Assembly (NCBI GenBank): GCA_947461995.1
Contig: CANHNH010000008.1
Coordinates: forward strand, 1 to 36,728
DNA: 36,728 nt
DNA from: Candidatus Nanopelagicaceae bacterium
Lineage (GTDB): Bacteria > Actinomycetota > Actinomycetes > Nanopelagicales > Nanopelagicaceae
Direction: 5' to 3'
Shown here: positions 2,957-36,728 of the stretch, in pieces
Numbering within the stretch: the first letter of the stretch is position 1
Layout: each line of letters starts with the position of its first letter
Notes under the pieces: generated by a model
The model's input: the letters and a program-made list of their open reading frames with translations, nothing else
Database searches by the model: none
Told to the model about the DNA's origin: nothing
Program-made: the position numbers and the translations under genes

Positions 2957-4120
<1,164 letters not shown>

Positions 4121-4137
4121 CAAAGAAAGAGGCGATG

Positions 4138-13648: not shown

Positions 13649-14216
13649 AGGCTTACTGATATTGGCTTCGGGCAATGGCTCTTTAGCGAAGGCTGTCATT
13701 GAAGCTACTCACAGTGGTGAGTTATCTGCACACGTACTTGCCGTATTGACGGATCAGCCTGACGCAGAAGTTGTTAGCAAGTGTGCAGCATTAGCAATTC
13801 CAATTATTACTCATCCACTCGAGCAAGATCGTGAAGCATGGAATGAAGAGTTGTTCTTCATTACAGAATCACTAAATCCTATGCTTGTAGTTAGCGCAGG
13901 GTTTATGAGAATTCTTTCTCCCGACTATGTTTCAACTTACAAAGTTATCAATAGTCATCCATCGCTTTTACCAAAATTTCCTGGTGCCCATGCGGTTCGC
14001 GATGCATTAGATGCCAAGGAGAGCATCACCGGGACAAGCATTCACTGGGTTGATGCAGGCATGGATACAGGAGAAGTAATCACTTCATGTGAAGTGCCAA
14101 TTTTAGAGGGAGATTCAGAAGAGCTATTGCACGAACGTATTAAGATTGTGGAACGAGGTCTCATCGTGGCGACCATTTCGCAAGTTCTAGATTTGTTGGA
14201 GACTGCAGATGAGTAA
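13641..14216 (+). CDS. purN: Phosphoribosylglycinamide formyltransferase (GART, folate-dependent)
   Basis: Third step of IMP synthesis: transfers formyl from 10-formyl-THF to GAR. 191 residues. It begins [15 protein letters not shown], the nucleotide-binding GNGS turn. The catalytic triad is visible: Asn and His in [17 protein letters not shown] and Asp in [13 protein letters not shown]. The residue after GNGS is Leu rather than the usual Asn, a mild deviation. The ATG at 13641 overlaps the end of the DUF6350 gene; a TTG one codon earlier is less likely. It overlaps purH by 8 nt, so the last two classical formyl-transfer genes are coupled. Confidence 0.95.
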
Positions 14217-15750
14217 TCGCAAGAAAATTCATAGAGCACTTATCAGCGTGTACGACAAGAATCGTTTAGGCGAAATTGGAAAAGCCCTAAGTGCAGCAGG
14301 CGTACAAATAGTTTCTACGGGTTCAACTGCGAAAACTCTTGCCGCAGCAGGTGTTGCAGTCACCGAAGTCAGTGCGATTACTGGTTTTCCGGAAATTATG
14401 GATGGAAGAATAAAGACGCTGCACCCGATTATTCACTCTGGAATTCTTGCTGATCAAAACAATGCCAATCACATGTCTGCAATTAAAGATTTAGGTATCG
14501 AACCTTTCGATCTGATTATTATCAATCTGTATCCATTTGCAGAGACAATCGCTTCAGGGGCACCATTTGCCGAATGCATTGAACAAATAGATATTGGTGG
14601 ACCATCGATGTTGCGTGGTGCTGCGAAGAATCATGGTTCAGTGGCTGTAATTTCACAACCAGATCAATACAATCAATTACTCGCTAGCATTTCTGCAGGA
14701 GGCTTTACAGACGAAGAACGCCAGAACCTTGCTGTCGAAGTATTTAGAACAACAGCTGAATACGATTTAACAATTGCCAATTGGCTGGGAAGTAAATCTC
14801 AATCAAAGTTACCTGAATGGTTTGGAAGAATTTATAAGCAAGAGAGTGTTCTTCGGTATGGAGAAAATCCTCATCAATCAGCCGCTATTTATAGCGATGG
14901 CCTACAAGGAATTGTTCAATCCACACAATTACACGGCAAGGAAATGTCCTTTAATAATTACACAGATGCAGATGCTGCATGGCGTGCGGCCTTCGATCAC
15001 GCAGACCCATGTGTTGCAATAGTTAAACACGCAAATCCATGTGGGATTGCAATTGGAAAAGACATCACCACTGCTTATTCAAAGGCACATGAATGTGATC
15101 CAGTCTCAGCCTTCGGAGGAGTAGTCGCCGCCAATCGAATTGTTAGTGTTGAAATGGCAAAAGCGCTTTCAGAAATTTTTACTGAAGTACTCATCGCACC
15201 AGGTTATGAAAGCGCCGCTATGGAAATTCTTGCTCAAAAACCTTCTATCCGTATTTTGCAATGCAGCATAACTGCGTTAGCACCGATTGAAATGCGTCCT
15301 GTCAGTGGAGGGGTTTTGCTGCAAGAATCAGATGTACTGAATGCTCCTGGCGATGCTTTTGCAACATGGAGGTTAGTAGCCGGACCACAAGTTTCATCCG
15401 ATACTTTGAAAGATCTTGAATTTGCTTGGCGAGCCGTTCGTGCAGTTAAAAGCAATGCGATACTTCTAGCAAAAAATGGTGCAAGTGTCGGCGTAGGTAT
15501 GGGTCAAGTTAATCGGGTAGACAGTGCCGAACTCGCGGTCAAACGCGCAGGCAATCGCGCCGCCGGAAGCGTTGCTTCCAGTGATGCTTTTTTCCCATTC
15601 GCAGATGGTTTACAAATTTTGATTACTGCAGGAATTACTGCAGTTGTTTCACCTGGTGGAAGCGTTCGAGACGAGGAAGTTATTGCAGCCGCAGATCAGG
15701 CTGGAATCAGCTTATATTTCACAGGCACACGTCATTTCTCCCACGCATAA
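14209..15750 (+). CDS. purH: Bifunctional AICAR transformylase / IMP cyclohydrolase
   Basis: Final two steps of IMP synthesis. 513 residues, normal length. The N-terminal MGS-like cyclohydrolase domain (about 1-190) shows [27 protein letters not shown] and NLYPF. The C-terminal transformylase domain has [12 protein letters not shown], the catalytic KHANPCG motif (Lys-His), and the ending [13 protein letters not shown]. Its IMP feeds the gua operon upstream. Last gene of the sucC-purH operon; the following folD has its own -10. Confidence 0.97.
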
Positions 15751-19069: not shown

Positions 19070-19801
19070 ATGAATCCTGAGCGCGGTGCTTTAGCACTGG
19101 TTGGCTCAGGAGAGTACTTAGTACAGATGCAGGAAATCGAATCTGATCTTTTGCAACGTGGTATCGCTCAAGGTAAATCCAATACCTACATACAAATTCC
19201 TACGGGTGCGGGTCAAGAAAGTGATGACCGCATCGAGTTTTGGAGAGAACGTGGAGCCGTGCAGGCCAAACGATTAGATGCGGAAGTTTGTTTTCTGTCA
19301 ATTCTGACAAGAGAAGATGCCTTTAACGAGAAGTATATTTCTCAACTTACTAACGCTGGCCTGATTTATTTTTCAGGTGGCGACCCTGGTTACATCACAG
19401 AAGTTTTTAACCAGACTCCACTCTGGGAAAAAATCAAAAATGAATTTAACTCCGGAACCTCCTTGGCAGGTTGTTCAGCAGGTGCAATGGCATTTGGATC
19501 AAAAATTGTGGGAATCAGAAAGTCGCACATTCAAAGCGGCCTTGGCTTAATTCCTAATATTGAAGTAATTCCGCACTATGACAAATTTCTTGGATGGGTA
19601 CCAGATCGAATTGCATCTATCGCGCTCCGAAGTGATGAAGGTTCTTATTTACTTGGCATTGATGAAGACACTGCACTTGTACTCACTGATAAATGGCGAG
19701 TACAAGGCCGTGCAAAAGTTCACGTGCTAAAGGGATTAGGAAATTCACCTCAAACGTTTACAAGTGGTAACGAGATTGAATTACTTCAGTCGTTCACCTG
19801 A
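19070..19801 (+). CDS. Peptidase S51-like (class I glutamine amidotransferase-fold) hydrolase
   Basis: 243 residues. The S51 family includes dipeptidase E, which cuts Asp-Xaa dipeptides, and cyanophycinase. Visible features: LVGSGEYL at the start, IYFSGGDPGYI (the ligand loop), the nucleophile elbow GCSAGAMAFG with Ser136 preceded by Cys135, and a candidate catalytic His in VIPHYDKFLG. The usual E. coli PepE substrate residues are not clear to me, so Asp-dipeptidase versus another hydrolase is left open. It is placed 5 nt after icd, suggesting cotranscription with TCA genes. Its last 21 nt overlap the convergent MsiK gene. Confidence 0.8.
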   Translation: MNPERGALALVGSGEYLVQMQEIESDLLQRGIAQGKSNTYIQIPTGAGQESDDRIEFWRERGAVQAKRLDAEVCFLSILTREDAFNEKYISQLTNAGLIYFSGGDPGYITEVFNQTPLWEKIKNEFNSGTSLAGCSAGAMAFGSKIVGIRKSHIQSGLGLIPNIEVIPHYDKFLGWVPDRIASIALRSDEGSYLLGIDEDTALVLTDKWRVQGRAKVHVLKGLGNSPQTFTSGNEIELLQSFT

Positions 19802-23492: not shown

Positions 23493-24548
23493 TTGAAGAA
23501 GTCAATTCGCATTGCGGCACTCGTCGCAGCTGCAACACTCGCTGCTGGTGCATTAGTTGCCCCAACAGCAAATGCAGCAATCAAAGTCAAAGCAGCAATT
23601 GCTTATGACATCGGCGGACGTGGCGACAAGTCATTTAATGACTCAGCTGCAGCTGGTCTCGACATGGCTAAGAAAAAGTTTGGTGTAACTGTTAAAGAAG
23701 TAACAGTTACACAAGGTACAGATTCAGAGCGCGAAGACAAGCTACGTCTTCTTGCAAAAGCTGGTTACACACCAATCGTTGCAGTTGGATACCTATATGC
23801 GGGTCCACTCAAGAAGGTTGCAGCAGAATTTCCAAAGACTCAGTTCGCAATCATTGATGATGAATCAGTGGCGCTACCAAATGTTTCTTCCCTTGTATTT
23901 ACTGAAGAGCAAGGCTCATACCTCGTCGGTGTTGCAGCTGCGCTTCAATCAGTAACAGGTGACATTGGCTATATCGGCGGCGTACGCACTCCATTACTTC
24001 AGAAGTTTGAGGCTGGATTCCGTGCTGGTGTTAAAGCTACAGATAAGAACGCAACTGTTGATGTTAAGTACATTTCAGAGCCACCTGATTACAGTGGTTT
24101 CAATGACCCAGCAAAGGCAAAGATTATTGCTAACGGCATGATCGATAAGGGCGTCGATGTTATTTACACAGCTGCTGGTGGTTCAGGTGCGGGTACTTTC
24201 GCCGCTGCAGCTGATGCCGGTAAGTACGGTAACAAAATCTGGACAATCGGTGTTGACTCTGATCAGTACTTAACAGGATCAGCAGCAGATAAGAAGAACA
24301 TGCTGACATCAATGCTTAAGCGCGTTGACAACGCAGTCTTTGACGTAATTGCTGCAGCAAGTGCTGGCAAGAAGGTTACAGATGCACTTGGCGGTGGAGT
24401 AGTTGGTCGCCGTTACAGCCTAAAGACCGGTGGAATCGCCGTTTCATATTCAGGTGGGTACATCAATCAGTACAAGTCAAAGATTGATGCTGCTGCAAAA
24501 GCAATCATTGCTGGAAAAATTAAGGTTCCAACAAAACCAGCTAAGTAA
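23493..24548 (+). CDS. BMP/PnrA-type nucleoside-binding protein of an ABC importer
   Basis: 351 residues, periplasmic-binding-protein fold of the BMP family (PnrA, BmpA, MED1), whose members bind purine and other nucleosides. Start TTG 23493 is set by the GGAGG 7-11 nt upstream. Residues 1-28 form a Sec signal peptide ending ANA|A; no lipobox Cys is present, nor any Cys in the protein, which is unusual for a Gram-positive binding protein. Family motifs: RGDKSFNDSAAAGLD, GTDSEREDKL, IDDESVALPNVSSLVFTEEQGSYLVG, GGVRTPLLQKFEAGFRAG and DVIYTAAGGSGAGTF. IGVDSDQY is the late ligand-contact motif. First gene of the nucleoside operon; likely made in excess over the membrane parts because of the hairpin after it. 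Confidence 0.92.
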   Translation: MKKSIRIAALVAAATLAAGALVAPTANAAIKVKAAIAYDIGGRGDKSFNDSAAAGLDMAKKKFGVTVKEVTVTQGTDSEREDKLRLLAKAGYTPIVAVGYLYAGPLKKVAAEFPKTQFAIIDDESVALPNVSSLVFTEEQGSYLVGVAAALQSVTGDIGYIGGVRTPLLQKFEAGFRAGVKATDKNATVDVKYISEPPDYSGFNDPAKAKIIANGMIDKGVDVIYTAAGGSGAGTFAAAADAGKYGNKIWTIGVDSDQYLTGSAADKKNMLTSMLKRVDNAVFDVIAAASAGKKVTDALGGGVVGRRYSLKTGGIAVSYSGGYINQYKSKIDAAAKAIIAGKIKVPTKPAK

Positions 24549-24682: not shown

Positions 24683-26188
24683 GTGGCGATAGCAGTAGAG
24701 CTTCGACATATAAGTAAAGGATTCCCGGGCGTCATCGCAAATAAAGACGTCTCAATCACAGTTGAATCAGGTTCAGTACACGCACTCATCGGTGAAAATG
24801 GCGCAGGTAAATCTACTGTCATGAAGATTTTGTACGGAATGCAACGCCCAGATAGCGGCGAAATTTTAGTCAATGGAAAAACAGTTCATTTTAAGAAACC
24901 AGCTGATTCTATTAAGTCTGGAATCGGAATGGTCCATCAGCACTTTATGCTGGCCGATAACTTCACCGTTCTAGAAAATATCGTCTTAGGTTACGAACCA
25001 TCACGTGGTGGAGTTATCGATTTTAATGATGCGCGTACAAAGATCAACCAGATGGCTGCTGCTTATGGGCTTACAGTTGATCCTGATGCACTTGTGGCAG
25101 ATCTCGGCGTTGGTCAACGTCAAAGAGTTGAAATTCTAAAAGTTTTATATCGCGGAGCCAAAATTTTAATTTTTGACGAACCAACGGCTGTATTGGTACC
25201 CCAGGAGGTTGACGAACTCTTTCAGGCGCTTCAGGGCTTACGCAAAGAAGGCTTAACTGTTATTTTTATTACCCACAAACTCGATGAAGTTTTACGTGTT
25301 GCAGATGATGTAACTGTGATTCGAGCAGGATCAACAGTTGCCGAAGTTAAGGCCTCAGATGCAACAGCCAAAAAGTTGGCAGAATTAATGGTTGGAAGCG
25401 AATTGCCTTCACCAGAAATTCATGGCAGTGCCAAGAGAAGTGAAGTAACGCTCTCACTGAAGAACTTAACAGTTCCAGCTGAATCTGGTGCCCGAAATCT
25501 TGTAACAGATGTGAGTTTTACTCTACATGCGGGCGAAGTTCTTGGAATTGCAGGCGTTGAAGGAAATGGTCAGAGCGAGTTAATTGAAGCAGTACTTGGA
25601 TTACGTGATTACACGGGCACGGTCGTTTTCAAAGGTGAACCATTAGATACTGAATCAGTTTCTGATCGGCGAGATATGGGAATTGGATTTATTCCAGAGG
25701 ATCGTCAGCGCCAAGCATTATTAATGGCTTCTCCATTATGGGAAAATAGAATTTTGGGACACCAACGTGGCAAACCGGTAATGAATGGCGTTCTGATTGA
25801 TCGCAAAGCGACAATGTCTGACACGGTTCGAATAATGCAAGAATTTGATGTGCGCGCCCCAGGTCCAGATACTTTGGCGCTTGCTCTCTCAGGTGGAAAC
25901 CAGCAAAAATTTATTGTCGGTCGTGAAATGAGTGGATCACCTTCCTTACTATTAGCATCACACCCAACTCGAGGCGTAGATGTTGGCGCGCAAGCTGCAA
26001 TTTGGAATGAATTGCGAACTGCTCGTGAAAATGGAATGGCAATTGTTCTGATTAGTGCAGATTTAGAAGAACTCATTGGTTTATCAGATCGTTTAATTGT
26101 GATGCTGCGAGGATCAATTACTGCTGAATTAGATCCGGCAAAAACCTCACCAGAAGCACTTGGTTCTGCAATGACAGGTGCAGCGTGA
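24683..26188 (+). CDS. Nucleoside ABC importer, double-NBD ATPase
   Basis: 501 residues, two nucleotide-binding domains fused as in RbsA/NupA/YufO. NBD1: Walker A GENGAGKST, Q-loop VHQHFMLADNFT, signature LGVGQRQRVEILK, Walker B ILIFDEPTAVLVPQE, His in FITHKLDEV. NBD2 begins about residue 255: a degenerate Walker A GVEGNGQSE lacking the Lys, PEDRQRQALL, LSGGNQQKFIVGRE and ASHPTRGVDVGAQ. Degeneration in NBD2 is normal for this family. Starts GTG 24683 with CAGGAG 9 nt upstream. Pairs with the two permeases directly downstream (1-nt overlap). Confidence 0.94.
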   Translation: MAIAVELRHISKGFPGVIANKDVSITVESGSVHALIGENGAGKSTVMKILYGMQRPDSGEILVNGKTVHFKKPADSIKSGIGMVHQHFMLADNFTVLENIVLGYEPSRGGVIDFNDARTKINQMAAAYGLTVDPDALVADLGVGQRQRVEILKVLYRGAKILIFDEPTAVLVPQEVDELFQALQGLRKEGLTVIFITHKLDEVLRVADDVTVIRAGSTVAEVKASDATAKKLAELMVGSELPSPEIHGSAKRSEVTLSLKNLTVPAESGARNLVTDVSFTLHAGEVLGIAGVEGNGQSELIEAVLGLRDYTGTVVFKGEPLDTESVSDRRDMGIGFIPEDRQRQALLMASPLWENRILGHQRGKPVMNGVLIDRKATMSDTVRIMQEFDVRAPGPDTLALALSGGNQQKFIVGREMSGSPSLLLASHPTRGVDVGAQAAIWNELRTARENGMAIVLISADLEELIGLSDRLIVMLRGSITAELDPAKTSPEALGSAMTGAA

Positions 26189-27288
26189 TGAGATTTAAGC
26201 CAGGAAAAATTGTTCTTTCAATTGCCGCCCCAGTTTTTGCTGCTCTCTTTAGTTTGGCTGTTTCGAGTGCATCACTGCTGGCAACAAATAAATCACCTCG
26301 AGATGCGTTTGCAGCCATGTGGGAGTTTGGTTCTGAGGCAGGATCTTTAATGGAAACCGTAAATCTTGCCACCTCGTATTACATCGCCGCAATTGCAATT
26401 GCACTCACGTTTAGAGCTGGATTGTTTAATATCGGCGTAGAAGGTCAACTTCGCTTAGGCGCGCTCTTCGCTGCTTATTTTGGTGCGATGATCGTTTTGC
26501 CACCGGTACTTCATATTCTCGCAATATTCATAATCGCAATGCTTGTCGGTGGTTTATGGGCGGCGATTGCTGCTTATATGAAGGTCAAACGTGGTGTGAG
26601 TGAAGTTATTTCAACAATTATGCTTAACAGTATTGCTGGTGGATTATCTGCTTACCTTCTGTCAAAACACTTCATGGTTAAAGTTGAAGGTAGTAATGAC
26701 TTAGCAACTAAACCACTTCCTGCAAGTGGCCAATTTCCAGATTTGATGCCCGTTTTAAAGAAACTAGGTGTTGAAGAACAACCTGGTGGTGGGGTTTACG
26801 GAATGTTGATTATTTCCGTAATTTTAGGAATAGCATTTTGGTTTGTTATTAATCGCACTAGATTTGGTTTCGAATTGCGTTCAAGCGGAATGAATCCAAT
26901 TGCGGCTCGCGTCAGTGGTGTTAATTCAAAAAAGATGACGTTTGTTGCTCTCGTTGCAAGTGGTGCAATAGCAGGTCTAGCAGGTTTGCCAACTTTGCTC
27001 GGCGATACTCATAGCTACACATTAGGTTTTAGAGGTGGAGTTGGCTTTACTGCAATTGCGATTGCATTGCTCGGTCGCAATTCTGCACTAGGTATGGCAA
27101 TTAGTTCTTTGTTATTTGGTTTTCTTGAAGTATCTTCTCGAATTCTAGAACTCATTGATATTGCCCCAGAAACTTATGTGATTATGCAAGGCTCTATTTT
27201 ACTCAGCGCTGTTATTGCCTATGAAGTTGTGCGCAGATACCAACTGACACTTCAAAGCACTGCACTCGCGAAGACGGGTGAAAAGTAA
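26188..27288 (+). CDS. Nucleoside ABC importer permease 1
   Basis: 366 residues with about nine to ten hydrophobic segments, BPD_transp_2 (RbsC/NupB-YufP-like) fold. Characteristic stretches: LTFRAGLFNIGVEGQLRLGA, KVKRGVSEVISTIMLN, ELRSSGMNPIAARVSG (the coupling loop for the ATPase) and FTAIAIALLGRNSALGMA. The ATG at 26188 overlaps the ATPase stop (TGATG); a GTG one codon earlier is the alternative. It forms the membrane channel together with permease 2. Confidence 0.92.
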   Translation: MRFKPGKIVLSIAAPVFAALFSLAVSSASLLATNKSPRDAFAAMWEFGSEAGSLMETVNLATSYYIAAIAIALTFRAGLFNIGVEGQLRLGALFAAYFGAMIVLPPVLHILAIFIIAMLVGGLWAAIAAYMKVKRGVSEVISTIMLNSIAGGLSAYLLSKHFMVKVEGSNDLATKPLPASGQFPDLMPVLKKLGVEEQPGGGVYGMLIISVILGIAFWFVINRTRFGFELRSSGMNPIAARVSGVNSKKMTFVALVASGAIAGLAGLPTLLGDTHSYTLGFRGGVGFTAIAIALLGRNSALGMAISSLLFGFLEVSSRILELIDIAPETYVIMQGSILLSAVIAYEVVRRYQLTLQSTALAKTGEK

Positions 27289-28538
27289 TGTTAGAAAAAG
27301 GAAAACTATCTGGACTTCGTCGAACTCTTGTGATTTTCTTTGGAATCATTGCGATTCTTTCAATTATTCGAATTCTTACCGGCGCATCAGACTTAACAAG
27401 TGTTGGAACCGCAAAAGCTGCACTCTTGCTCTCAATCCCAATTGTTTTAGCAGCACTCGGTGGTTTATTTGCTGAACGTGCCGGTGTTGTAAATATTGGC
27501 CTTGAAGGCATGATGATCATGGGCGCCTGGGCTGGCGGCTACATGGGAAGCAAACACGGCCCTTGGGCCGGCTTGCTTGCTGCGATTTTCTTTGGCGCAG
27601 TTGGTGCTTTGGTGCACGCTATTGCAACGATTACATTTGGCGTTGATCACGTAGTCTCTGGCGTTGCTATCAATATTATTGCTGCCGGTTTAGTTAGATA
27701 CATATCAACAATTTTAGCTAAAGGTGGTTCTTGGCCTGGACCCTCGCAATCTCCGGATGTGGAATCTATTGGTCAAAACGGTTTACCAATTCTTTCTGCT
27801 GGAAAGTATTTTGGTTGGCAGAGTCCTGATCTTCTCGGTTGGATTGGTGAGAAGAATTGGTTCTTAATCTCAGATATTTCTCGAGTATTACGTGGTTTAA
27901 CTGGTGAGCTCTCGTACGTAACAATGATTGCTGTTGCACTAGTGCCGCTTAGTTATTTTATTTTGTGGAAGACATCATTTGGCTTACGTTTACGAAGCAC
28001 CGGAGAATCTCCAATTGCTGCTGAATCCCTTGGCGTAAATGTTTATGCGATGAAGTATTGGGGAGTCTTACTTTCTGGCGGATTTGCGGGTCTCGGTGGC
28101 GGATTCTTAGCAATCGTTGCTGCCAATCATTATCAGGAGAATCAAATTGGTGGACGTGGGTATATCGGATTAGCAGCCATGCTCTTTGGTAATTGGCGCC
28201 CAGGTGGATTATTAGCCGGTGCCGCACTCTTCGGTTTTGCCGATGCTCTTCAACTTCGAGATTCCACTGCAATCCATGCCCTCCTATTGCTTATTGTTGC
28301 AGTCTTGATATTTGCATCATGGCGATCATTCAAAAAGGCAAAACGAATTGCTGGAATAGGCGCTATTGCATTGGCAGCTTTCTTTGCTTGGTTCTTTATT
28401 GCCTTTGATGAACTTCCAGGTCAACTAGTCACGATGACACCTTATTTAGCAACACTGATCGTTCTCTCTTTTGCCTCGCAACGATTGCGGGGACCGGCGG
28501 CCGCAGGATTCCCATACAGACGTGGTGGCTTGAAATAG
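27288..28538 (+). CDS. Nucleoside ABC importer permease 2
   Basis: 416 residues, second BPD_transp_2 permease (NupC/YufQ-like). Motifs: ALGGLFAERAGVVNIGLEGMMIMGAW near the N-terminus in two parts, FGVDHVVSGVAINI, LRLRSTGESPIAAESLGV (coupling loop) and GRGYIGLAAMLFGNWRPGG. A C-terminal extension with two more hydrophobic segments (about residues 350-395) follows the core, so the protein is longer than permease 1. Start ATG 27288 shares an A with the preceding TAA. cdd begins on the next base after its stop. Confidence 0.92.
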   Translation: MLEKGKLSGLRRTLVIFFGIIAILSIIRILTGASDLTSVGTAKAALLLSIPIVLAALGGLFAERAGVVNIGLEGMMIMGAWAGGYMGSKHGPWAGLLAAIFFGAVGALVHAIATITFGVDHVVSGVAINIIAAGLVRYISTILAKGGSWPGPSQSPDVESIGQNGLPILSAGKYFGWQSPDLLGWIGEKNWFLISDISRVLRGLTGELSYVTMIAVALVPLSYFILWKTSFGLRLRSTGESPIAAESLGVNVYAMKYWGVLLSGGFAGLGGGFLAIVAANHYQENQIGGRGYIGLAAMLFGNWRPGGLLAGAALFGFADALQLRDSTAIHALLLLIVAVLIFASWRSFKKAKRIAGIGAIALAAFFAWFFIAFDELPGQLVTMTPYLATLIVLSFASQRLRGPAAAGFPYRRGGLK

Positions 28539-28937
28539 ATGTCGCTGACACCTGATTGGCAACTCTTACATTCAGTTGCAATTGCTGCCAGTAAAAAAGC
28601 GTATGCGCCATATTCAAATTTTCCAGTAGGCGTTGCAGGTTTAGTAAGTGACGGACGAATAGTCAGCGGATGTAACGTTGAAAATGCTAGCTATGGACTT
28701 GGTTTATGCGCTGAATGCAGCATGACATCCGAACTAGTCATGAGTGGTGGAGGTCGACTTGTTGCGGTTCTTTGCGTCGATGCACAAGGAGATTATCTAG
28801 CCCCATGCGGAAGATGCCGACAACTCTTGTTCGAACATGGCGGCAATGAGTTATTACTTATGACTGCCGATGGACCTATGAAGATGTCTTCGATGTTGCC
28901 GTGGGCATTTGGCCCTGATGATTTAGATCGCAATTAA
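28539..28937 (+). CDS. cdd: Cytidine deaminase
   Basis: Deaminates cytidine and deoxycytidine to uridine and deoxyuridine. 132 residues, tetrameric short class. The zinc site is complete: the C-A-E of YGLGLCAECSM (Cys ligand and catalytic Glu) and PCGRCRQLL (two Cys ligands). NVENASYG is the ribose-binding Asn-Glu motif. SKKAYAPYSNFPVG opens the domain. It follows permease 2 without a gap. Supplies substrates for the phosphorylase downstream. Confidence 0.96.
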   Translation: MSLTPDWQLLHSVAIAASKKAYAPYSNFPVGVAGLVSDGRIVSGCNVENASYGLGLCAECSMTSELVMSGGGRLVAVLCVDAQGDYLAPCGRCRQLLFEHGGNELLLMTADGPMKMSSMLPWAFGPDDLDRN

Positions 28938-28943
28938 ATTTTA

Positions 28944-30233
28944 ATGAGCACTGTAGAACCCTTTTCAGCAGTAGAAATTATTGCAGCGAAACGAGATAAA
29001 TCTATTCTGGCTAATCCGCAAATTGATTGGATTATTGATGCATACACGCGTGGAGTAGTTGCAGATGAGCAGATGTCGGCACTGCTGATGGCAATCTTGC
29101 TTAATGGCATGAATTCACAAGAAATTTCTCGCTGGACTAACGCAATGATCAATAGCGGTGAAAAAATGAACTGGTCAATGCTGGATCGACCAACTGTAGA
29201 TAAGCATTCAACTGGGGGTGTTGGCGACAAAATAACCTTGCCGCTTGCACCACTTGTAGCCGCATGCGGAGCGGCAGTTCCACAGTTATCAGGTCGCGGA
29301 TTAGGTCACACGGGTGGAACGCTAGATAAATTAGAGTCAATTTCAGGTTGGCAAGCATCACTGAGCAATGAAAAAATGTTACAAGTTTTGCAAGAGTGTG
29401 GAGCGGTTATTTGTGCAGCTGGTGCGGGCTTAGCACCTGCAGATAAAAAGTTATATGCACTACGTGATGTAACAGGAACTGTCGAAGCAATCCCACTTAT
29501 TGCATCATCGATTATGAGTAAGAAAATTGCTGAAGGCACAAGTGCGCTACTTCTAGATGTTAAAACTGGCAGCGGTGCATTTATGAGCGATCCTTTAAAA
29601 GCGCGAGAATTAGCGCAGATTATGGTTGGCCTAGGAAAAGATGCTGGAGTTAAAACATTGGCACTCGTAACTGCAATGGATGTGCCTCTGGGTCTCACGG
29701 CAGGTAACGCCTTGGAAGTTAGAGAATCTCTCGAAGTTTTGGCAGGTGGTGGTCCCTCAGATGTTGTCGATTTAACAATTATTTTCGCCCGAGAAATGTT
29801 GGAGTTAGCTGGCATCAAGGGCAAAGATCCTGCCGTTGCACTTAAAGATGGTTCTGCAATGGATGTATGGCGAAAAATGATTAGCGCTCAAGGTGGAAAT
29901 CCAGATTCACCGATACCTGTTGCAAAAGAAAATTTAACAATTACAGCAAATTCAACTGGCACATTACTTTCCATGGATGCGATGTCTGTCGGCATCGCAT
30001 CATGGAGATTGGGTGCGGGACGTTCACGCCAAGGTGAAAGCGTTCAAGCTGGCGCTGGAATCGAAATCCACAAAAAACCAGGTGAAAATATTGTTGCAGG
30101 TGAGGCCCTGTACACCCTTCATACAGATACACCCGAACGATTTGCGCGAGCACAAGAAGTGTTAGAAGGTAGTGTTGCAATCGGCTCGGGAGAAGTGAAG
30201 CGACTCCCACTTATTGTGGAACGAATTAGTTGA
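28944..30233 (+). CDS. deoA: Thymidine (pyrimidine-nucleoside) phosphorylase
   Basis: Splits thymidine or deoxyuridine with phosphate to base and 2-deoxyribose-1-phosphate. 429 residues. Signature motif [17 protein letters not shown]; phosphate-binding [14 protein letters not shown]; and [22 protein letters not shown]. The C-terminal domain (from about 340) ends with the typical [14 protein letters not shown] and [20 protein letters not shown] region. Length and motifs do not separate a thymidine-specific from a general pyrimidine enzyme. 6 nt after cdd. Its sugar product is consumed by the deoC/ALDH operon at the other end of this island. Confidence 0.94.
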
Positions 30234-30246
30234 AATTGGTGAAAAA

Positions 30247-31341
30247 GTGAGTATGCAAAGTATTCCAACCGTAGAACAGATTAAACGCGTTCCAAAGGTT
30301 TTATTGCACGATCACTTAGATGGCGGATTACGCCCACAAACAATTATTGATATTGCCAAGAAGATTGGGTATACCGCTCTACCAACTGATGACGCAACAG
30401 AATTGGCCACATGGTTTCGTGAATCCTGTGATTCAGGATCCTTGGTGCGTTACTTAGAAACTTTTAGTCACACAATTGCAGTAATGCAAACTCGAGAAAA
30501 TATAGTTCAAGTTGCTCGTGAGTGCGCACTTGATTTAGCTCGCGACGGAGTTGTTTACGCCGAAGTCAGAGGTGCGCCTGAGTTATTTACCGAGCAAGGA
30601 CTATCTCTTGATCAAGTTATACAGGCAACTTTGGATGGGTACCGTGAGGGCGAAGAAATAGCACGCACAGAAGGATTCACAATTCAAGTGCGTTCACTTT
30701 TGTGTGGAATGCGACAAAATAATCGTTCACAAGAAGTCGCCGAACTTGCTGTGAAGTATCGAGATAAAGGTGTTGTGGGATTTGATATTGCAGGTCCTGA
30801 AGATGGATTTCCACCATCTAATCAACAAAAAACTTTTGAATACTTACGTCGCGAAGATGCACACTTCACTATTCATGCTGGTGAAGCCTATGGTTTACCA
30901 TCAATTTGGGAAGCGATTCAATTATGTGGCGCAGAAAGATTAGGACACGGTGTCAGAATAATCGATGACATCAATGTCAACGCAGCCGAACCTAAATTAG
31001 GTCAGCTAGCGTCCTACATTCGAGATAGACGTATTCCCCTAGAACTATGTCCAACGTCGAATTTACAAACAGGTGCTGCGAAAAATATAGAACAACACCC
31101 GATTGGAATATTGGCCAAACTACGTTTTCGAGTAACACTTAATACTGATAACCGCTTAATGAGCCAAACATCCATGTCTCATGAGATGACAGAAGTAGTT
31201 CGAGCTTTCAAGTGGGATTTAGCAGAATTGCAAAGAGTCACAATCAATGGAATGAAGAGTGCATTTATTCCATATCCGGAGAGGCTAGAAATAATTGAAA
31301 AGATTATTAAGCCAGGATATGCAGCGATTGCATCTGAATAA
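30247..31341 (+). CDS. add: Adenosine deaminase
   Basis: Converts adenosine and deoxyadenosine to inosine forms with release of ammonia. 364 residues. Zinc ligands [10 protein letters not shown] (HxH) and HAGEAYG, with catalytic Glu next to them; GHGVRI; and late metal-binding Asp in NTDNRLMS, where Asn stands in the second Asp position. I take that as a common variant of the actinobacterial group, not decay. Possible starts are GTG 30247 (4 nt after GGTGA) and ATG 30253; a TTG at 30214 would overlap deoA and is unlikely. P450 follows immediately after its stop. Confidence 0.94.
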
Positions 31342-32535
31342 ATGATTGATTTTCTCGATAAGAATTTCATCGAAGATCCCTATCCGGCACTGCAAGAGTT
31401 AAGAGCTCACGGCAAACCTGTATGGCACGAAGGCGCTCAGATGTATTTAGCTGCTCGGTATGAGGACGCAAATGATGTTTTGCGTACCAAATCTTTAGGC
31501 AGAATTTTTAAGAGTAAAGAACCAGAGTTTGAATGGGATGTATTTAACTGGCTTCATGCAGATTCAATATTAGATAGTGAACCACCTAAGCACACCCGCT
31601 TACGTTCATTAGTGGCAAAAGCTTTTAATAGAAATAAAATTGAGAGCCAACGTCCAGTAATTGAGAAAATTACTCAAGAGTTACTCGATGCCATTGAAAT
31701 CAAAGTTCGAGCAGGCCACACCTTTGACGTTATTGCAGATTATGCAGAGCCATTACCTGTAAAAGTAATTGCCGCTCTGTTGGGATTTCCTGCCGCAGAT
31801 GAATATTTATTAAGGCCATGGTCCCAATCCATCGTAAAAATGTATGAAGTTAATCCGACTCCAGAGCATCAAAACGAAGCTAAAGCTGCAGCGAAGGCAT
31901 TTGCCGATTATGTGCATAATTTAATGTTGGAAAGAAAGAAGAATCCCGGAACTGATCTCATCAGCGATTTAGCAGCAGTTGAAGAGAGTGGTGAAAAGTT
32001 AAGTGCCCACGAGTTAGTTGCAACATGTGTGCTTTTACTTAACGCCGGCCATGAAGCAAGTGTTAATGCTTTTGGAAATGGAATGGTTGCCGCTCTATCT
32101 AGACCAGATCAGGCAGATTTACTCCGAACGAAGGCTTACGAAATCGCAGAAACAGCCGTTGAAGAGTTCTTACGCTTTGACGCACCACTTCACTTGTTTG
32201 AGCGCACCGCCACGTCAGATACAGACATTGGGGGAGTAACGGTCCGTGAAGGGGAAAAAATAGCGTCATTGTTGGGCTCTGCTAATCGAGATGAGAGCGT
32301 CTTTGAAAAATCTAATGACATGGATTTGTTGCGCAATCCAAATCTGCATATTGGTTTTGGCGCTGGAATTCATTTTTGTTTAGGTGGCCCACTCGCACGT
32401 CTAGAAATGGGAATTTCTTTGCCTGCACTATTCGAAAGATTCAAAGATATTGAATTGGCAAGTACGCCAAAGCGTCGACCAACCTTTGTTTTACGTGGTT
32501 ATGAGAGTGTGGATATTTCAGCGGCACTCGGATAA
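31342..32535 (+). CDS. Cytochrome P450 (substrate unknown), last gene of nucleoside operon
   Basis: 397 residues, soluble bacterial class I type. The haem motif is FGAGIHFCLGGPLARLE with Cys346 as thiolate ligand. The K-helix ExxR is E275-R278, and HTRLRSLVAKAF the C-helix. The I-helix reads N-A-G-H-E-A-S-V (234-241). Position 239, normally the oxygen-activating Thr, is Ala, as in P450eryF (CYP107A1). No ferredoxin or reductase gene is nearby, so redox partners must come from elsewhere. It starts on the base after the add stop, so it is surely cotranscribed with the importer, cdd, deoA and add. The cotranscription suggests a substrate linked to nucleosides or imported with them, but this is not shown. 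3' end overlaps rbsK by 37 nt. Confidence 0.92.
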   Translation: MIDFLDKNFIEDPYPALQELRAHGKPVWHEGAQMYLAARYEDANDVLRTKSLGRIFKSKEPEFEWDVFNWLHADSILDSEPPKHTRLRSLVAKAFNRNKIESQRPVIEKITQELLDAIEIKVRAGHTFDVIADYAEPLPVKVIAALLGFPAADEYLLRPWSQSIVKMYEVNPTPEHQNEAKAAAKAFADYVHNLMLERKKNPGTDLISDLAAVEESGEKLSAHELVATCVLLLNAGHEASVNAFGNGMVAALSRPDQADLLRTKAYEIAETAVEEFLRFDAPLHLFERTATSDTDIGGVTVREGEKIASLLGSANRDESVFEKSNDMDLLRNPNLHIGFGAGIHFCLGGPLARLEMGISLPALFERFKDIELASTPKRRPTFVLRGYESVDISAALG

Positions 32536-33395
32536 GAAGATTGTGCTCCTTTTCGGGTCACACTAATTGAGGCGATTCGACAAGCAAATTGCGCGGCATT
32601 TTCTGGATCAGACCCAGAGCCAAGCGCGTAGGAAAAAGATCCGATAAAACAATCTCCCGCACCTGTTGTATCAATTGCTTGGACTTTATTTGTTGATATA
32701 TTAGTTAAATCACCTTGTGGAGAGACGAGAACCGCGCCTTTATCTCCCAGTGTCACAATCGATTGGTTTCCATTACGAAATTGCGCCAGCGTAAGCGCAG
32801 TTGGAGCACTTCCAACGAACTCTTCAAATTCGATTTCATTAGGTATGAGCCAATCGGTTACAGCCAATAAATCTGATGAGAGCTCTTGATATGGCGCAGG
32901 ATTGAGAATTGTGAGCGCTCCGCGTTCTTTTGCAACAGCAAATGCTGCAGCTGTCACAGATTGTGGCACTTCACACTGGCCAATAACTATTGCAAGATCA
33001 GGAATCAATTTAATTGCTTGCGCAGCGTGATTCTCATCAAAATCATGATTCGCACCAGGAACAATCAAAATTCTATTTTGGCCTTGGCTATCAACCCAAA
33101 TATGCGCAACGCCTGTAGGCAAACTAGAAATCTTTACATACTCTGAATTAACATTTTGATTCTTGAAATTTTCTTGCAGCGATGTGCCAAATAAATCATT
33201 GCCAATGCTTCCAACCATATAAACATTTGCTCCTGCTAGAGCCGCCATTACAGCTTGGTTTGCACCCTTGCCACCAAATCCTGTTGTAAACAAATTACCG
33301 TACAGAGTTTGTCCTGCTTGAGGTAAAACTTCGGCATAACATGTCAGATCCATGCTAGAACTGCCTACGACGGCAATCACTGGTGCTTTGGCCAT
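32499..33395 (-). CDS. rbsK: Ribokinase (PfkB family)
   Basis: Phosphorylates ribose to ribose-5-phosphate. 298 residues. GFGGKGANQAVMAALAGA is the N-terminal PfkB signature; GSSSMDLTCY contains the substrate Asp; DTTGAGDCFIGSF carries the anion hole and catalytic Asp; ILNPAPY and NEIEFEEF are ribokinase-like. ATG 33395 is chosen because a TATTAT -10 lies 7 nt upstream and the protein then begins at the first beta strand; an earlier start would add 12 residues reaching into the divergent gene. Likely handles ribose freed by the divergent nucleoside hydrolase. Confidence 0.93.
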   Translation of the reverse strand: MAKAPVIAVVGSSSMDLTCYAEVLPQAGQTLYGNLFTTGFGGKGANQAVMAALAGANVYMVGSIGNDLFGTSLQENFKNQNVNSEYVKISSLPTGVAHIWVDSQGQNRILIVPGANHDFDENHAAQAIKLIPDLAIVIGQCEVPQSVTAAAFAVAKERGALTILNPAPYQELSSDLLAVTDWLIPNEIEFEEFVGSAPTALTLAQFRNGNQSIVTLGDKGAVLVSPQGDLTNISTNKVQAIDTTGAGDCFIGSFSYALGSGSDPENAAQFACRIASISVTRKGAQSSYPSAAEISTLS

Positions 33396-33402
33396 GAAAT
33401 AG

Positions 33403-33412
33403 ATAATAGAGT
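33403..33412. promoter_or_regulatory. Overlapping divergent leaderless -10 boxes, rbsK and nucleoside hydrolase
   Basis: Minus strand TATTAT (33408-33403) is 7 nt before the rbsK ATG at 33395. Plus strand TAGAGT (33407-33412) is 6 nt before the hydrolase ATG at 33419. The boxes overlap by 2 bp, and the whole gap is only 23 nt. Neither gene has a Shine-Dalgarno. Any -35 must lie inside the opposite coding region. Confidence 0.55.
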
Positions 33413-33418
33413 AAGTCC

Positions 33419-34366
33419 ATGAATTCCACACCCGTCATTCTCGATGTAGATACTGGAATTGATGACGCTTTTGCGATTTTGTTCGCAGCCCGACACCCAT
33501 CAATAAATTTGCTTGGCATCACGTGCGTGGATGGAAATACAAATGTCGCACAAGTTGTGGCAAATACACTGCAAGTATTAGATGCTGCCGGTGCAGGTGA
33601 CATTCCTGTTGCTCGCGGTGCAATTCGCCCGCTACTTGGGCAATCGCAATACGCAGAATATGTGCACGGTGAAGATGGCATGGGCGATTTAGGTTTAGCG
33701 CCATCTCGAAGAAGTATTGATTCACGCTCTGCAATCGAATTATTGCGCGACCTAGTAGATCAATCATCCGAACCCGTCACATTGGTACCACTCGCACCTC
33801 TTACAAACATTGCACTTTTCTTACGTGCATTTCCAGAAAGTGCCAAGAAATTAAAGCGAATTGTCTTAATGGGCGGATCAGCATCAGCGGGAAATGCAAC
33901 TCCTGCTGCCGAATTTAACGTCTGGCATGATCCTGAAGCGGCAGCTATTGTTTTCCAGAGCGGAATTCCAATAACAATGTACGGGCTTGATGTATTCATG
34001 CGTCCATGTGTGAGCGCAGAAGAAGCCGATAAGTTAACCAAATCGTCAGACTCATGTGCACAATTTGCAGGAAGATTAATTAATGCATTCATCGAACGAA
34101 TCGGCTCGCCAGTAACTCTAGGTGATTACGGAGCAGTTGCTAGTGTGATTGCCCCCGAGTTGATAACAACTGCGAGGTTTGATGTAATTGTTGATACATC
34201 AGCAGGTCCTGCGCGTGGTCAAACTATTGTTGATCGCAGACCAGCGCTTGAATTGGAAATTGAACCACTTCGGTTAGAAAATGCTGCAAAAGTAGATGTA
34301 ACTCTTGATTTAGATGTTGAGGGAATGCGTCAATTGTGGCTAAAAACTATTGATCCGCATTTCTAA
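33419..34366 (+). CDS. Inosine/uridine-preferring nucleoside hydrolase family
   Basis: Hydrolyses nucleosides to free base and ribose. 315 residues. The calcium/ribose motif DVDTGIDDAFA (residues 9-19) is intact. HGEDGMGDLGL, PLAPLTNIALFL, MGGSASAGNATPAAEFNVWHDPEAA and the late metal Asp in LGDYGAVA follow. In the Crithidia-type enzyme His precedes that Asp and acts as acid for purines; here it is Gly, so pyrimidine preference or another acid is possible. Its stop touches the stop of the convergent ALDH-like gene with no base between. Confidence 0.92.
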   Translation: MNSTPVILDVDTGIDDAFAILFAARHPSINLLGITCVDGNTNVAQVVANTLQVLDAAGAGDIPVARGAIRPLLGQSQYAEYVHGEDGMGDLGLAPSRRSIDSRSAIELLRDLVDQSSEPVTLVPLAPLTNIALFLRAFPESAKKLKRIVLMGGSASAGNATPAAEFNVWHDPEAAAIVFQSGIPITMYGLDVFMRPCVSAEEADKLTKSSDSCAQFAGRLINAFIERIGSPVTLGDYGAVASVIAPELITTARFDVIVDTSAGPARGQTIVDRRPALELEIEPLRLENAAKVDVTLDLDVEGMRQLWLKTIDPHF

Positions 34367-35212
34367 TTACACGCCAATTGGATGCCACACAGTTTTTGAT
34401 TCCATAAAGGCAAGAATACGGCCAGGTGTTGCAACTTCTTTAAATGAATGAATTCGCTTGAGATTTTGTGCACCTGCCACTTTAATTTCAGCCACCAGTT
34501 TTGAATCCAAACCGGAAATATCCAAACCATCTATATCCATATGCGATGCAAACCATGGTGCTAACTCTGCACTCTTCCCAGTCAGAATATTTATTACACC
34601 AGCGGGAACATCACTGGTTGCAATTACTTCTGCAAAACTTATTGCAGGCAGGGGAGCTACCTCACTCGCTAGCGCTATAACGGTATTGCCGCTTGCGATA
34701 ATTGGTGCTATTCCAGCAACAAAGCCAAGCAGAGGCGATTTCTTTGGCGCAATAAAACCAACCACGCCCAAAGCTTCTGGAATTGTGAAGTTGTAGTACG
34801 GCCCGGCAACAGGGTTTGTTGAACCATCTAGTGCGCTAATTTTATCGGTCCAACCCGCATACCAAACAAGCAGATCAATACTCGCTTCAACTTCGTCGTG
34901 TGCTTTCTTTGGTGTAACTCCAGTAAGTTCACAAATCTCAGCAATAAATTGATCATGGCGACCTTCAAGCATTTCGGCAATTCTGTAAAGAATTTGACCT
35001 CGGTTATAGGCAGTTGCGTTTGACCAACCACTTTGAGCGGCGCGCGCAGCAACAACAGCATCTTTAAGATCTTTTCGAGATGCCAAACAAGGATTTGCTA
35101 TGAAAACCCCTTTTGAGTTTTTAACTTCGTAGGTACGACCAGATTCAGTGCGTGGAAAAGCGCCACCGATAAATAACTTATAAGTTTTTTTCACATCAAT
35201 TCGCTTACTCAT
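34367..35212 (-). CDS. Truncated aldehyde-dehydrogenase-like protein, probable pseudoenzyme
   Basis: 281 residues, clearly ALDH-derived: YKLFIGGAFPRTESGRTYEV at the start, RGQILYRIAEMLE, YAGWTDKISAL, ALGVVGFIAPKKSPLLG (where active enzymes have PWNFP) and ASGNTVIALASEVAPLPA. The FTGS cofactor loop, the ELGGK catalytic Glu and the entire C-terminal catalytic domain with its Cys are absent. The frame is clean and starts 8 nt inside the end of the full-length ALDH, so this is a maintained gene, not a frameshifted remnant. It probably assembles with the neighbouring ALDH as a non-catalytic subunit; that is inference. Confidence 0.85.
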   Translation of the reverse strand: MSKRIDVKKTYKLFIGGAFPRTESGRTYEVKNSKGVFIANPCLASRKDLKDAVVAARAAQSGWSNATAYNRGQILYRIAEMLEGRHDQFIAEICELTGVTPKKAHDEVEASIDLLVWYAGWTDKISALDGSTNPVAGPYYNFTIPEALGVVGFIAPKKSPLLGFVAGIAPIIASGNTVIALASEVAPLPAISFAEVIATSDVPAGVINILTGKSAELAPWFASHMDIDGLDISGLDSKLVAEIKVAGAQNLKRIHSFKEVATPGRILAFMESKTVWHPIGV

Positions 35213-36644
35213 GTGCCACTCCCTTGAGATAAGCGGTTAAACCATGACGACCACCCTCGCGGCCCCATCCTGACTCTTTATATCCACCAAAAGGACTTGT
35301 TGGATCAAACTTGTTAAATGTATTCGCCCAAATAACTCCGGCCTTTAGTTTCTGAGAAGCCCAGAGAATCTTTGAACCCTTCTCGCTCCAAACTCCTGCA
35401 GATAGACCAAATGGAGTGTTATTTGCTTTATCAATTCCTTCTTGAGGTGTGCGAAATGTAAGGACAGAAAGTACTGGACCGAATATCTCTTCACGAGCGA
35501 TTCGATGAGATTGAGTAACACCAGTAAAAATTGTTGGCGCAAACCAGAACCCTTTGTTCGGTAACGCGCACTCAGGGCTCCAACGCTCTGCGCCTTCGGC
35601 ATCTCCTGCGAGAGAGAGCTCCTTAATTTTATCTAATTGCGCGCGTGAATTAATTGCGCCAAGATCCGTGTTTTTATCTAAAGGATCGCCTACACGAATT
35701 TTTTCCATTCTCTTTTGTAACTTCTTGATAAATTCATCTGAGATGCTTTCCTGAATAACGAGTCGTGAACCGGCGCAGCAGACGTGGCCTTGATTAAAGA
35801 AAATGCCATTAACAATTCCTTCGACACTTTCATCAATTGCTGCATCTTCGAAAACGACGTTTGCAGCTTTGCCACCAAGTTCGAGAGTTACGCTCTTTGT
35901 AGTTCCGGCAACAGCCCGAGCAATTATTTTTCCAACTTCAGTTGAACCAGTGAAGGCAATTTTATTAATTCCAGGGTGGTTGACAATAAGTACACCTGTA
36001 GAACCGTCTCCAGTGACAATATTTACAACACCCGCTGGCAAACCAGCTTGTTCGCATACTTCGGCGAATAGAAGAGCAGTCAGTGGAGTAGTTTCAGCGG
36101 GCTTTAAGACAACGGTATTTCCAGTTGCAAGTGCTGGAGCTACTTTCCAAGCAAGCATGAGTAGTGGAAAATTCCACGGAATAATCTGTCCTACAACTCC
36201 GTGAGCCTTTGCTTTTGTACCTACCCCAGCATATTCAAGTTTGTCAGCCCAACCTGCGTGGTAGAAAAAGTGTGCAGCCGCGAGAGGTACGTCAACATCT
36301 CGGGATTCTCTAATTGGTTTTCCGTTATCTAAACTTTCTAGTACGGCAAATTCACGTGCGCGCTCTTGCAGAATTCGGGCAATTCGAAATAAGTATTTAC
36401 CGCGTTCGCGTCCTGAGAGTTTCGACCAGTGCAGATCTAAGGCTTTCTTTGCTGCCTTAACTGCTGCATCAACTTCTTTTTTACCACCCAATGAGATTGA
36501 ACTAAGGATTTCTTCCGTCGCAGGATTAATTGTTGGGAAATGTTTTTCTCCTGCAACAAACTTGCCACCTATGTAATGGCCATATTTGGGTTTAATAGAG
36601 ACGCTGGCACGCGACTCTGGTGCCGGTGCGTATTCAAAACTCAT
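35205..36644 (-). CDS. Aldehyde dehydrogenase (NAD(P)), deoC-linked
   Basis: 479 residues, complete. Motifs in order: HYIGGKFVAGEKHFPTINPA, IIPWNFPLLMLAWKVAPALA, LKPAETTPLTALLFAE, FTGSTEVGK (cofactor loop), LELGGKAANVVF (catalytic Glu), NQGHVCCAGSR with Cys289 as nucleophile, EEIFGPVL, and SPFGGYKESGWGREGG. Start ATG 36644 has GGAG 8 nt upstream; an earlier in-frame start would reach into the preceding gene's end. It follows a probable deoC by 13 nt, so the likely substrate is acetaldehyde from deoxyribose-5-phosphate cleavage. Coupled by an 8-nt overlap to the truncated ALDH. Confidence 0.94.
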   Translation of the reverse strand: MSFEYAPAPESRASVSIKPKYGHYIGGKFVAGEKHFPTINPATEEILSSISLGGKKEVDAAVKAAKKALDLHWSKLSGRERGKYLFRIARILQERAREFAVLESLDNGKPIRESRDVDVPLAAAHFFYHAGWADKLEYAGVGTKAKAHGVVGQIIPWNFPLLMLAWKVAPALATGNTVVLKPAETTPLTALLFAEVCEQAGLPAGVVNIVTGDGSTGVLIVNHPGINKIAFTGSTEVGKIIARAVAGTTKSVTLELGGKAANVVFEDAAIDESVEGIVNGIFFNQGHVCCAGSRLVIQESISDEFIKKLQKRMEKIRVGDPLDKNTDLGAINSRAQLDKIKELSLAGDAEGAERWSPECALPNKGFWFAPTIFTGVTQSHRIAREEIFGPVLSVLTFRTPQEGIDKANNTPFGLSAGVWSEKGSKILWASQKLKAGVIWANTFNKFDPTSPFGGYKESGWGREGGRHGLTAYLKGVAHE

Positions 36645-36657
36645 GCGAAGTTCTCCA

Positions 36658-36728
36658 TTAATCAATCGTTACGTACTGAGGGCTAGCGTAGTAGCCATCA
36701 TCCATTTTCATGCGCTGCATCAATAAAT
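36658..36728 (-). CDS. deoC: Probable deoxyribose-phosphate aldolase, last 22 codons (window edge)
   Basis: Only the 3' end is inside the window. Read on the minus strand from 36726, the codons give LLMQRMKMDDGYYASPQYVTID followed by TAA at 36660-36658. This resembles the C-terminus of actinobacterial DeoC as I recall it (a LLMQRQK... G-Y-YV-x-D pattern after the ASSLL phosphate motif, which would lie just outside). The position upstream of two ALDH genes and the nucleoside context agree. The fragment is too short for a firm identification. Confidence 0.6.
   Translation of the reverse strand, partial: LLMQRMKMDDGYYASPQYVTID

Follow-up and report, generated by a model that had tools for sequence, protein, structure and literature searches.

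A CYP107P-like cytochrome P450 associated with a putative nucleoside importer and salvage genes in Nanopelagicaceae and other actinobacteria

The cytochrome P450 studied here lies on the plus strand at positions 31342 to 32535 of the window, by which we mean the whole stretch of 36,728 nucleotides that was analyzed, contig 8 of a Candidatus Nanopelagicaceae source genome (904 kb, 60.84% complete) in which one P450 was detected. Its 397-amino-acid open reading frame begins with an ATG directly after the TAA of add (31339 to 31341) and closes a run of eight plus-strand genes in the order BMP-nupO-nupP-nupQ-cdd-deoA-add-P450. The run opens with a gene for a BMP/PnrA-type substrate-binding protein (23493 to 24548; PF02608, 196 bits), an importer component absent from the gene list of the original prediction, which lies 134 bases ahead of nupO; from nupO through the P450, the genes overlap or are spaced by at most 6 bases. 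They encode a double ABC ATPase (nupO, 24683 to 26188; two stretches matching PF00005), two PF02653 permeases (nupP, 26185 to 27288, and nupQ, 27288 to 28538), a cytidine deaminase (cdd, 28539 to 28937; NF004064, 174.6 bits for a cut-off of 74), a thymidine/pyrimidine-nucleoside phosphorylase (deoA, 28944 to 30233; NF004490, 608 bits for a cut-off of 269), and an adenosine deaminase (add, 30214 to 31341; NF006847, 580.7 bits for a cut-off of 412). Open reading frame coordinates and family assignments thus confirmed that the P450 abuts the add stop codon at the end of a tight nucleoside import and salvage run, as had been claimed from the letters alone. The 3' end of the P450 gene overlaps, tail to tail, a minus-strand gene for a ribokinase-like PfkB kinase (32499 to 33431; PF00294; TIGR02152 at 293.9 bits, slightly below the cut-off of 299.65), and a plus-strand gene for an IunH/RihC-like nucleoside hydrolase follows (33419 to 34366; PF01156). 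Two minus-strand genes come next, encoding a half-length aldehyde dehydrogenase homolog of 281 amino acids (34367 to 35212), which covers only the first half of the NCBIfam aldehyde dehydrogenase models shown, and a full-length aldehyde dehydrogenase matching such models (35205 to 36665); the two are neighbors in other loci as well, whether the P450 is present or absent.

Elsewhere in the window, genes for IMPDH, an IMPDH-like protein, and GMP synthase form one plus-strand run (3005 to 6793) and a gene for AICAR transformylase/IMP cyclohydrolase lies at 14209 to 15750, placing purine synthesis on the same contig as purine salvage. A MerR-type regulator with B12-binding domains (2072 to 2947, plus strand; PF13411, PF02607, and PF02310) has what we take to be the architecture of CarH/LitR-like light-sensing repressors, and a cyanophycinase-like protein is encoded at 19070 to 19801 on the plus strand (TIGR02069 at 76.3 bits, below the cut-off of 126.6).

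Nucleoside ABC importers of the BMP/NupNOPQ type are built from a BMP/PnrA binding protein, a double ABC ATPase, and two PF02653 permeases. The window importer has these same parts, complete in one operon, and would carry nucleosides judging from its neighbors cdd, deoA, and add. The NCBIfam models of a putative B6 ABC importer (NF047927 to NF047930) missed their curated cut-offs on it, with 67.6 of 400, 433.9 of 670, 119.8 of 400, and 115 of 465 bits. Where it departs from other BMP/NupNOPQ-type importers is in belonging to a distinct P450-associated clade, hereafter type W, for which nupQ served as the marker in the order and class distributions; the paralog of P450-negative genomes is 28 to 33% identical to it in nupQ and 42 to 46% in nupO.

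The P450 itself matched the Pfam p450 family (PF00067) at 96.7 bits for a cut-off of 22.8, and its core is intact. The Cys-ligand loop FGAGIHFCLGGPLAR contains FGAGIHFCLGG, which fits FxxGxxxCxG, the K-helix ExxR is present as EEFLR, and the heme Cys and the Glu and Arg of ExxR are kept in every aligned group. An acid-alcohol pair with Thr is usual, though not universal, in the I-helix of P450s. Here, the I-helix follows the pattern NAGHEA[S/T]VN (NAGHEASVN in the window), with Ala replacing the usual Thr in 160 of 160 aligned sequences; the acidic residue, Glu, is kept in 159 of them, as is the Asn at position 242 of the window protein, and Asn at 234 occurs in most. Weighted entropy over 158 sequences was 0.33 for the I-helix segment, 0.47 for the heme loop, and 0.82 for SRS5, compared to 1.46 overall; SRS1, SRS2, and SRS6, at 1.36, 1.32, and 1.20, were slightly more conserved than average, within SRS limits that we set from an AlphaFold2 model (mean pLDDT of 81, residues 55 to 85 poor).

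The nearest solved chain by sequence was 8yhn, CYP107P2 of Streptomyces avermitilis (E = 1.2e-101, 43% identity), which was also at the top of the fold comparison (Z of 36.4, rmsd of 3.2 over 381 residues, 43% identity), tied with others including P450BioI (Z of 36.4, 32% identity to the window P450). The two proteins have in common LLLNAGHEA[S/T]VN, with Ala at the usual Thr position. In P450 nomenclature, members of a family are ~40% identical or more and members of a subfamily ~55% or more. With 43% identity to CYP107P2, the window P450 is a candidate member of CYP107, and it fell short of the level for the CYP107P subfamily, being 42 to 45% identical to the orthologs of the Streptomyces family, f17. 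The I-helix Thr is also replaced, by Ala245, in CYP107A1 (P450eryF), for which a review regards the 5-OH of the substrate as the likely proton donor; its authors considered CYP107A1 to be, to their knowledge, the only CYP107 without this Thr (PMC10741444). Going by their sequences, CYP107P2 and the window P450 family are without it as well, contradicting that statement. CYP107A1 differs from the window P450 in serving macrolide secondary metabolism (erythromycin biosynthesis), with no salvage operon; the structure of its A245T variant ranked 30 in the fold comparison, at 32% identity.

A scan of named genomes returned 94 relatives of the P450, of which 80 were kept (64 to 92% identical), the nearest being Candidatus Planktophila/acI actinobacteria at 90 to 92% P450 identity. 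One of these loci is from isolate IMCC19121, placed in tribe acI-A7 (PMC5301498). The gene directly upstream of the P450 was add in 63 of the 80 loci, with gaps of -2 to 67 bases, and cdd in 2; PNP and phosphosugar mutase genes lay on the same strand in 7, and 8 had no nucleoside gene in the fetched flank. Titles and gene content led us to sort the 65 add or cdd loci as Nanopelagicaceae type. Many of their contigs are short. The 1.5 kb ahead of the P450 include deoA in 48 loci, and the 4 kb ahead of it include a same-strand type W nupQ in 42; a subgroup has cdd-add-P450 and no deoA. The remaining 15 loci, 12 of them Micrococcales/Microbacteriaceae by title, comprise the seven PNP/phosphosugar mutase loci (three spaced by 21 to 24 bases, three with an intervening MFS gene, and L081 with an unresolved 1.2 kb) and the eight Rhodoluna-type loci. 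Among the Rhodoluna-type loci, L053, L063, and L072 carry one gene family directly after the P450, whose scanned member (L053) is bacteriorhodopsin-like. A UPF0176/rhodanese gene, of a family that presumably includes oxygen-dependent tRNA uridine hydroxylases, is the first or second gene after the P450 in L068, L069, L076, L078, and L081 (scanned in L078).

In a sample of the order (201 genomes, 69 with the P450), P450 and add were both listed for 47 of the 69 P450-positive genomes, and in 43 of these, add immediately precedes the P450 on the same strand. Two of the four exceptions had add on another contig and two had it 502 to 503 bases upstream on the opposite strand (G099:C68 and G149:C15), rearranged yet linked. 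With add directly upstream in 43 of 47 order-sample genomes and in 63 of 80 named loci, the arrangement is beyond chance. The far side of the P450 is also recurrent: of the 56 Nanopelagicaceae-type loci with enough flank, window included, 46 have a nucleoside hydrolase no more than 2.5 kb from the P450 and 39 a ribokinase beside it. For comparison, we fetched 20 add regions from Nanopelagicaceae genomes without the ortholog (G005, G010, G105, and G122 among them have weaker P450 paralogs), and no homolog of the ribokinase or of the nucleoside hydrolase was found there at E ≤ 1e-30.

At the class level, a P450 ortholog was present in 130 of 393 sampled genomes (E ≤ 1e-83, the next hits being 1e-76 and weaker), and 80 loci were fetched from the positive genomes. 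All 23 class-sample orthologs of family f23, which are 47 to 52% identical to the window P450, lie between cdd and deoA behind BMP-nupO-P-Q, with 0.8 to 2.2 kb separating P450 and deoA in L138, L158, and L168. In family f35, one of four P450 loci (L113) is divergent from BMP-nupOPQ-cdd-deoA. Another 19 of the 80 loci, from several families and some on one-sided contigs, have the P450 in a stretch that we labeled nuoD-like plus DUF2520-panC-nadB-nadC-coaX-lysS, where no nucleoside link is visible. None of the 16 fetched f17 loci from the Streptomyces family lies beside a nucleoside operon or in the nuoD-like/panC stretch, which, together with the 43% identity, sets CYP107P2 apart from the window P450. 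Moreover, f17 orthologs read FERWVLD instead of FERTATx in substrate-facing segments (15 aligned), and the Streptomyces enzymes may therefore act differently from the rest of the family. The three plasmid relatives opened among 30 listed matches, in Sinorhizobium and Synechocystis outside Actinobacteria (best, 38.6%) and in one Streptomyces, had no nucleoside neighbors.

In a FastTree phylogeny of 119 P450s, the f23 clade is separate from the Nanopelagicaceae/Microbacteriaceae clade, with L113 near the latter and members from other loci on both sides between them, several deep supports being modest (0.5 to 0.9). Most simply, then, placement beside nucleoside genes would have arisen at least twice. 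The expectation that orthologs always follow add/deoA thus held in the order for 43 of 47 genomes, directly behind add, and gave way in the eight Rhodoluna-type loci and in several families elsewhere; scattering at unrelated loci, which had been named as the observation that would speak against the linkage, is rare within the order and occurs outside it.

Where the P450 is found, importer type W is usually found too. The order sample has the P450 in 69 genomes, type W nupQ in 65, and both in 63; in the class sample, type W occurs in 123 of 130 P450-positive versus 43 of 263 P450-negative genomes, and of the seven P450-positive genomes without it, five are from one genus. Since 43 P450-negative genomes carry type W, the importer works without the P450. 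All 20 P450-negative Nanopelagicaceae loci keep cdd-deoA-add, and none has type W there: 15 have another ABC paralog in front (nupQ 30 to 33% and nupO 42 to 46% identical to those of the window), one (L212) has other-paralog ABC genes elsewhere in the region (nupQ 28%), and four have no full transporter there. In the nupQ and nupO trees, of 87 and 81 rows, type W is one clade (supports of 0.94 and 0.93, respectively) that unites the importers accompanying the P450 in Nanopelagicaceae, in f35, and at 22 of 23 f23 loci; the importers of P450-negative loci fall outside it, as do those of the P450-positive loci with another importer type, namely four Microbacteriaceae-type loci and f23 locus L155. 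Where the P450 sits at another locus, type W is still beside cdd in 13 of 14 fetched deoA loci. Conversely, f23 genomes without the P450 have a type N importer in the region (5 of 5), and an f17 genome without it (L231) has no transporter at deoA and type W elsewhere. The tie between P450 and type W therefore persists without gene adjacency.

Fisher values for the order and class co-occurrence ignore relatedness, and we did not use them as proof. With an aldehyde dehydrogenase (ALDH1) tree of 70 loci, paired independent contrasts pointed in the same direction in 7 of 7 cases (p = 0.016); a deoA tree of 102 loci, including five P450-positive ones with another importer, left 2 contrasts (p = 0.5), a drop that might reflect movement of deoA together with the cassette. 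Altogether, the association is strong, though kinship of the genomes inflates the counts. Given the recurrent placement, the co-distribution, and the joint absence, we consider it likely that the P450 shares a function with importer type W. The initial suggestion of a functional link between the P450 and nucleoside import and salvage is thereby strengthened, since the association is seen again in other families and with other gene orders, and across the class the P450 tracks one importer paralog. The alkylated, prenylated, or cytokinin-like purines put forward with that suggestion are candidate substrates, and their dealkylation is a candidate reaction.

A partner for the P450 was sought near and far. 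The statement that no redox partner is encoded nearby was borne out, a motif scan of the P450 loci giving only frames that looked spurious by eye. Of 91 genomes, 12 have a Fer4_15 ferredoxin, whereas the P450-positive genomes G004, G006, G015, and G021, each a single contig, have none, and 9 of the 13 Fer4_15 places in the order are within 5 kb of a different, distant P450; Fer4_13 was found in 0 of 14 genomes, including four single-contig P450-positive acI genomes. No dedicated ferredoxin of these two single-cluster families was thus found for the P450. A short frame (106 to 149 amino acids) matching Fer4_7 was present in 14 of 14 genomes, both with and without the P450, which makes a shared, general-purpose ferredoxin possible; Pyr_redox_2 proteins (flavin reductases) were likewise in all 14. 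As for the neighboring oxidoreductases, the aldehyde dehydrogenase pair, considered as formaldehyde handlers, was dropped: it also flanks 17 of 20 P450-negative operons, is probably not specific to the P450, and is therefore no sign of dealkylation. A putative corrinoid demethylation island present in 5 of 7 P450-positive and 0 of 7 P450-negative acI genomes (L196 to L199 and G021:C1:934094) contains, in our reading, a RACo-like Fer2 protein and MetF-like and pterin-binding methyltransferase-like frames; a large Fer2 frame ~5 kb away was read as sarcosine oxidase. We set this island aside as a P450-linked candidate, its distribution being confounded by lineage and betaine use being more likely given the sarcosine oxidase-like frame.

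We know of no P450 step in textbook nucleoside salvage. Ordinary phosphorolysis and hydrolysis are ineffective on some of the methylated nucleosides that RNA turnover releases. We propose, as an evenly balanced call drawn from gene content and protein motifs, that the P450 works as a catabolic enzyme in the scavenging of nucleosides, oxidizing modified ribonucleosides imported by type W, most likely through oxidative dealkylation. In this model, the BMP-type importer would take up ribonucleosides, some of them chemically modified, and the P450 would oxidize the modified ones for Add, Cdd, DeoA, and the nucleoside hydrolase with ribokinase. A nucleoside ligand is suggested by cdd, deoA, add, and the hydrolase standing beside the P450, and ribonucleosides in particular by the hydrolase and ribokinase, found in 0 of 20 P450-negative regions. 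The likeliest chemistry would be oxidative removal of the alkyl group from ribonucleosides that RNA turnover releases in O- or N-methylated (or otherwise N-alkylated) form, yielding the plain nucleoside and an aldehyde; we chose it as the P450 reaction by which the substrate would become available to the neighboring enzymes again, and methylated ribonucleosides are put before cytokinins solely on account of being common in RNA. Electrons would come from a general ferredoxin and reductase. Because the I-helix Thr is missing, as in CYP107A1, a hydroxyl of the substrate itself may aid proton delivery in the way proposed for that enzyme. A more daring version, possible in our view though doubtful, would make this widespread actinobacterial P450 family a dedicated salvage enzyme that demethylates 2'-O-methyl or N-methyl ribonucleosides and matches the importer paralog, the ribose hydroxyl replacing the Thr.

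Three other explanations were weighed against modified-ribonucleoside oxidation. The same operon and importer associations would be seen if the substrates oxidized by the P450 were plain nucleosides or bases, hydroxylated for example on the sugar or on a base methyl, and a catabolic branch were opened in this way; the polar I-helix residues kept nearly throughout (Asn 242 and Asn 234) also suit a polar ligand. Nevertheless, the adjacent deaminases, phosphorylase, and hydrolase would be expected to handle plain nucleosides already, P450-negative genomes retain cdd-deoA-add, and no further oxidative catabolic gene was seen recurring beside the P450, which makes this branch unlikely. It is quite unlikely, in turn, that the P450 acts on a nonnucleoside compound also carried by type W and stays near the salvage genes through the shared importer. 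The BMP family does include members annotated for other ligands, such as the putative B6 importer, whose models are the nearest named NCBIfam ones though far below cut-off (67.6 versus 400 bits for the binding protein), and it is the importer that the P450 follows, its placement among cdd, deoA, and add differing between loci; however, the B6 models were unmet, and cdd and deoA adjoin the type W nup genes in most fetched loci, for which reason nucleosides are the likeliest ligands of type W. Finally, the linkage could be positional only, an old, vertically inherited CYP107P-like P450 of unrelated function hitchhiking in a well-expressed operon, as might be argued from the several families that keep it at a locus without nucleoside genes, from the two contrasts left by the deoA tree, from the apparent age in the class of both P450 and type W, whose shared ancestry would explain part of the counts, and from P450s of other function in the order (the alkane-type genes alkB and CYP153 are reported in Nanopelagicales in a paper on hydrocarbon cycling, PMC10176705); we find this improbable, given a placement beside nucleoside genes in at least three arrangements, the joint absence of P450 and type W in two families, the retention of type W where the P450 is unlinked, and CYP107P2 as the nearest solved relative, with no CYP153 among the matches listed in the sequence and fold comparisons.

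Our preferred reading, oxidative dealkylation of imported ribonucleosides, has partial parallels in known systems. P450s that O-demethylate sugars such as 6-O-methyl-galactose sit in polysaccharide-use operons with their own ferredoxin and reductase. By analogy, they would resemble the window P450 in that a P450 within a catabolic import operon frees a usable sugar from its methyl ether, the kind of chemistry proposed here; they differ by their own ferredoxin and reductase, neither of which was seen at the window locus. The Fas P450 of the Rhodococcus fascians cytokinin locus is thought to act on a purine-type molecule and is biosynthetic rather than a salvage enzyme; going by this general description, the purine-type substrate would be alike and the role different. 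In the literature searched, in which subscription journals are thinly covered, we found neither a P450 tied to nucleoside import or salvage nor a report of the substrate of CYP107P2. The family was already known by sequence, one member having a structure, and what is new, as far as that literature goes, is its tie to nucleoside import and salvage.

Our study thus points to a P450 that accompanies one nucleoside importer in many actinobacteria, suggesting an unrecognized oxidation step in the recycling of modified nucleosides. The joint presence or absence of P450 and importer type W within two families offers a genetic handle on this step, and the tie to the importer could point to a function for CYP107P-like orphans. 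If the P450 supplies a salvage step, the single P450 detected in a streamlined acI genome, together with its heme, would be devoted to scavenging modified nucleosides, with a bearing on the diet of these dominant lake bacteria. If the demethylation reading is true, the enzyme would be, as far as is known, without precedent among P450s in nucleoside salvage, and methylated RNA debris in lakes would have a sink in it.
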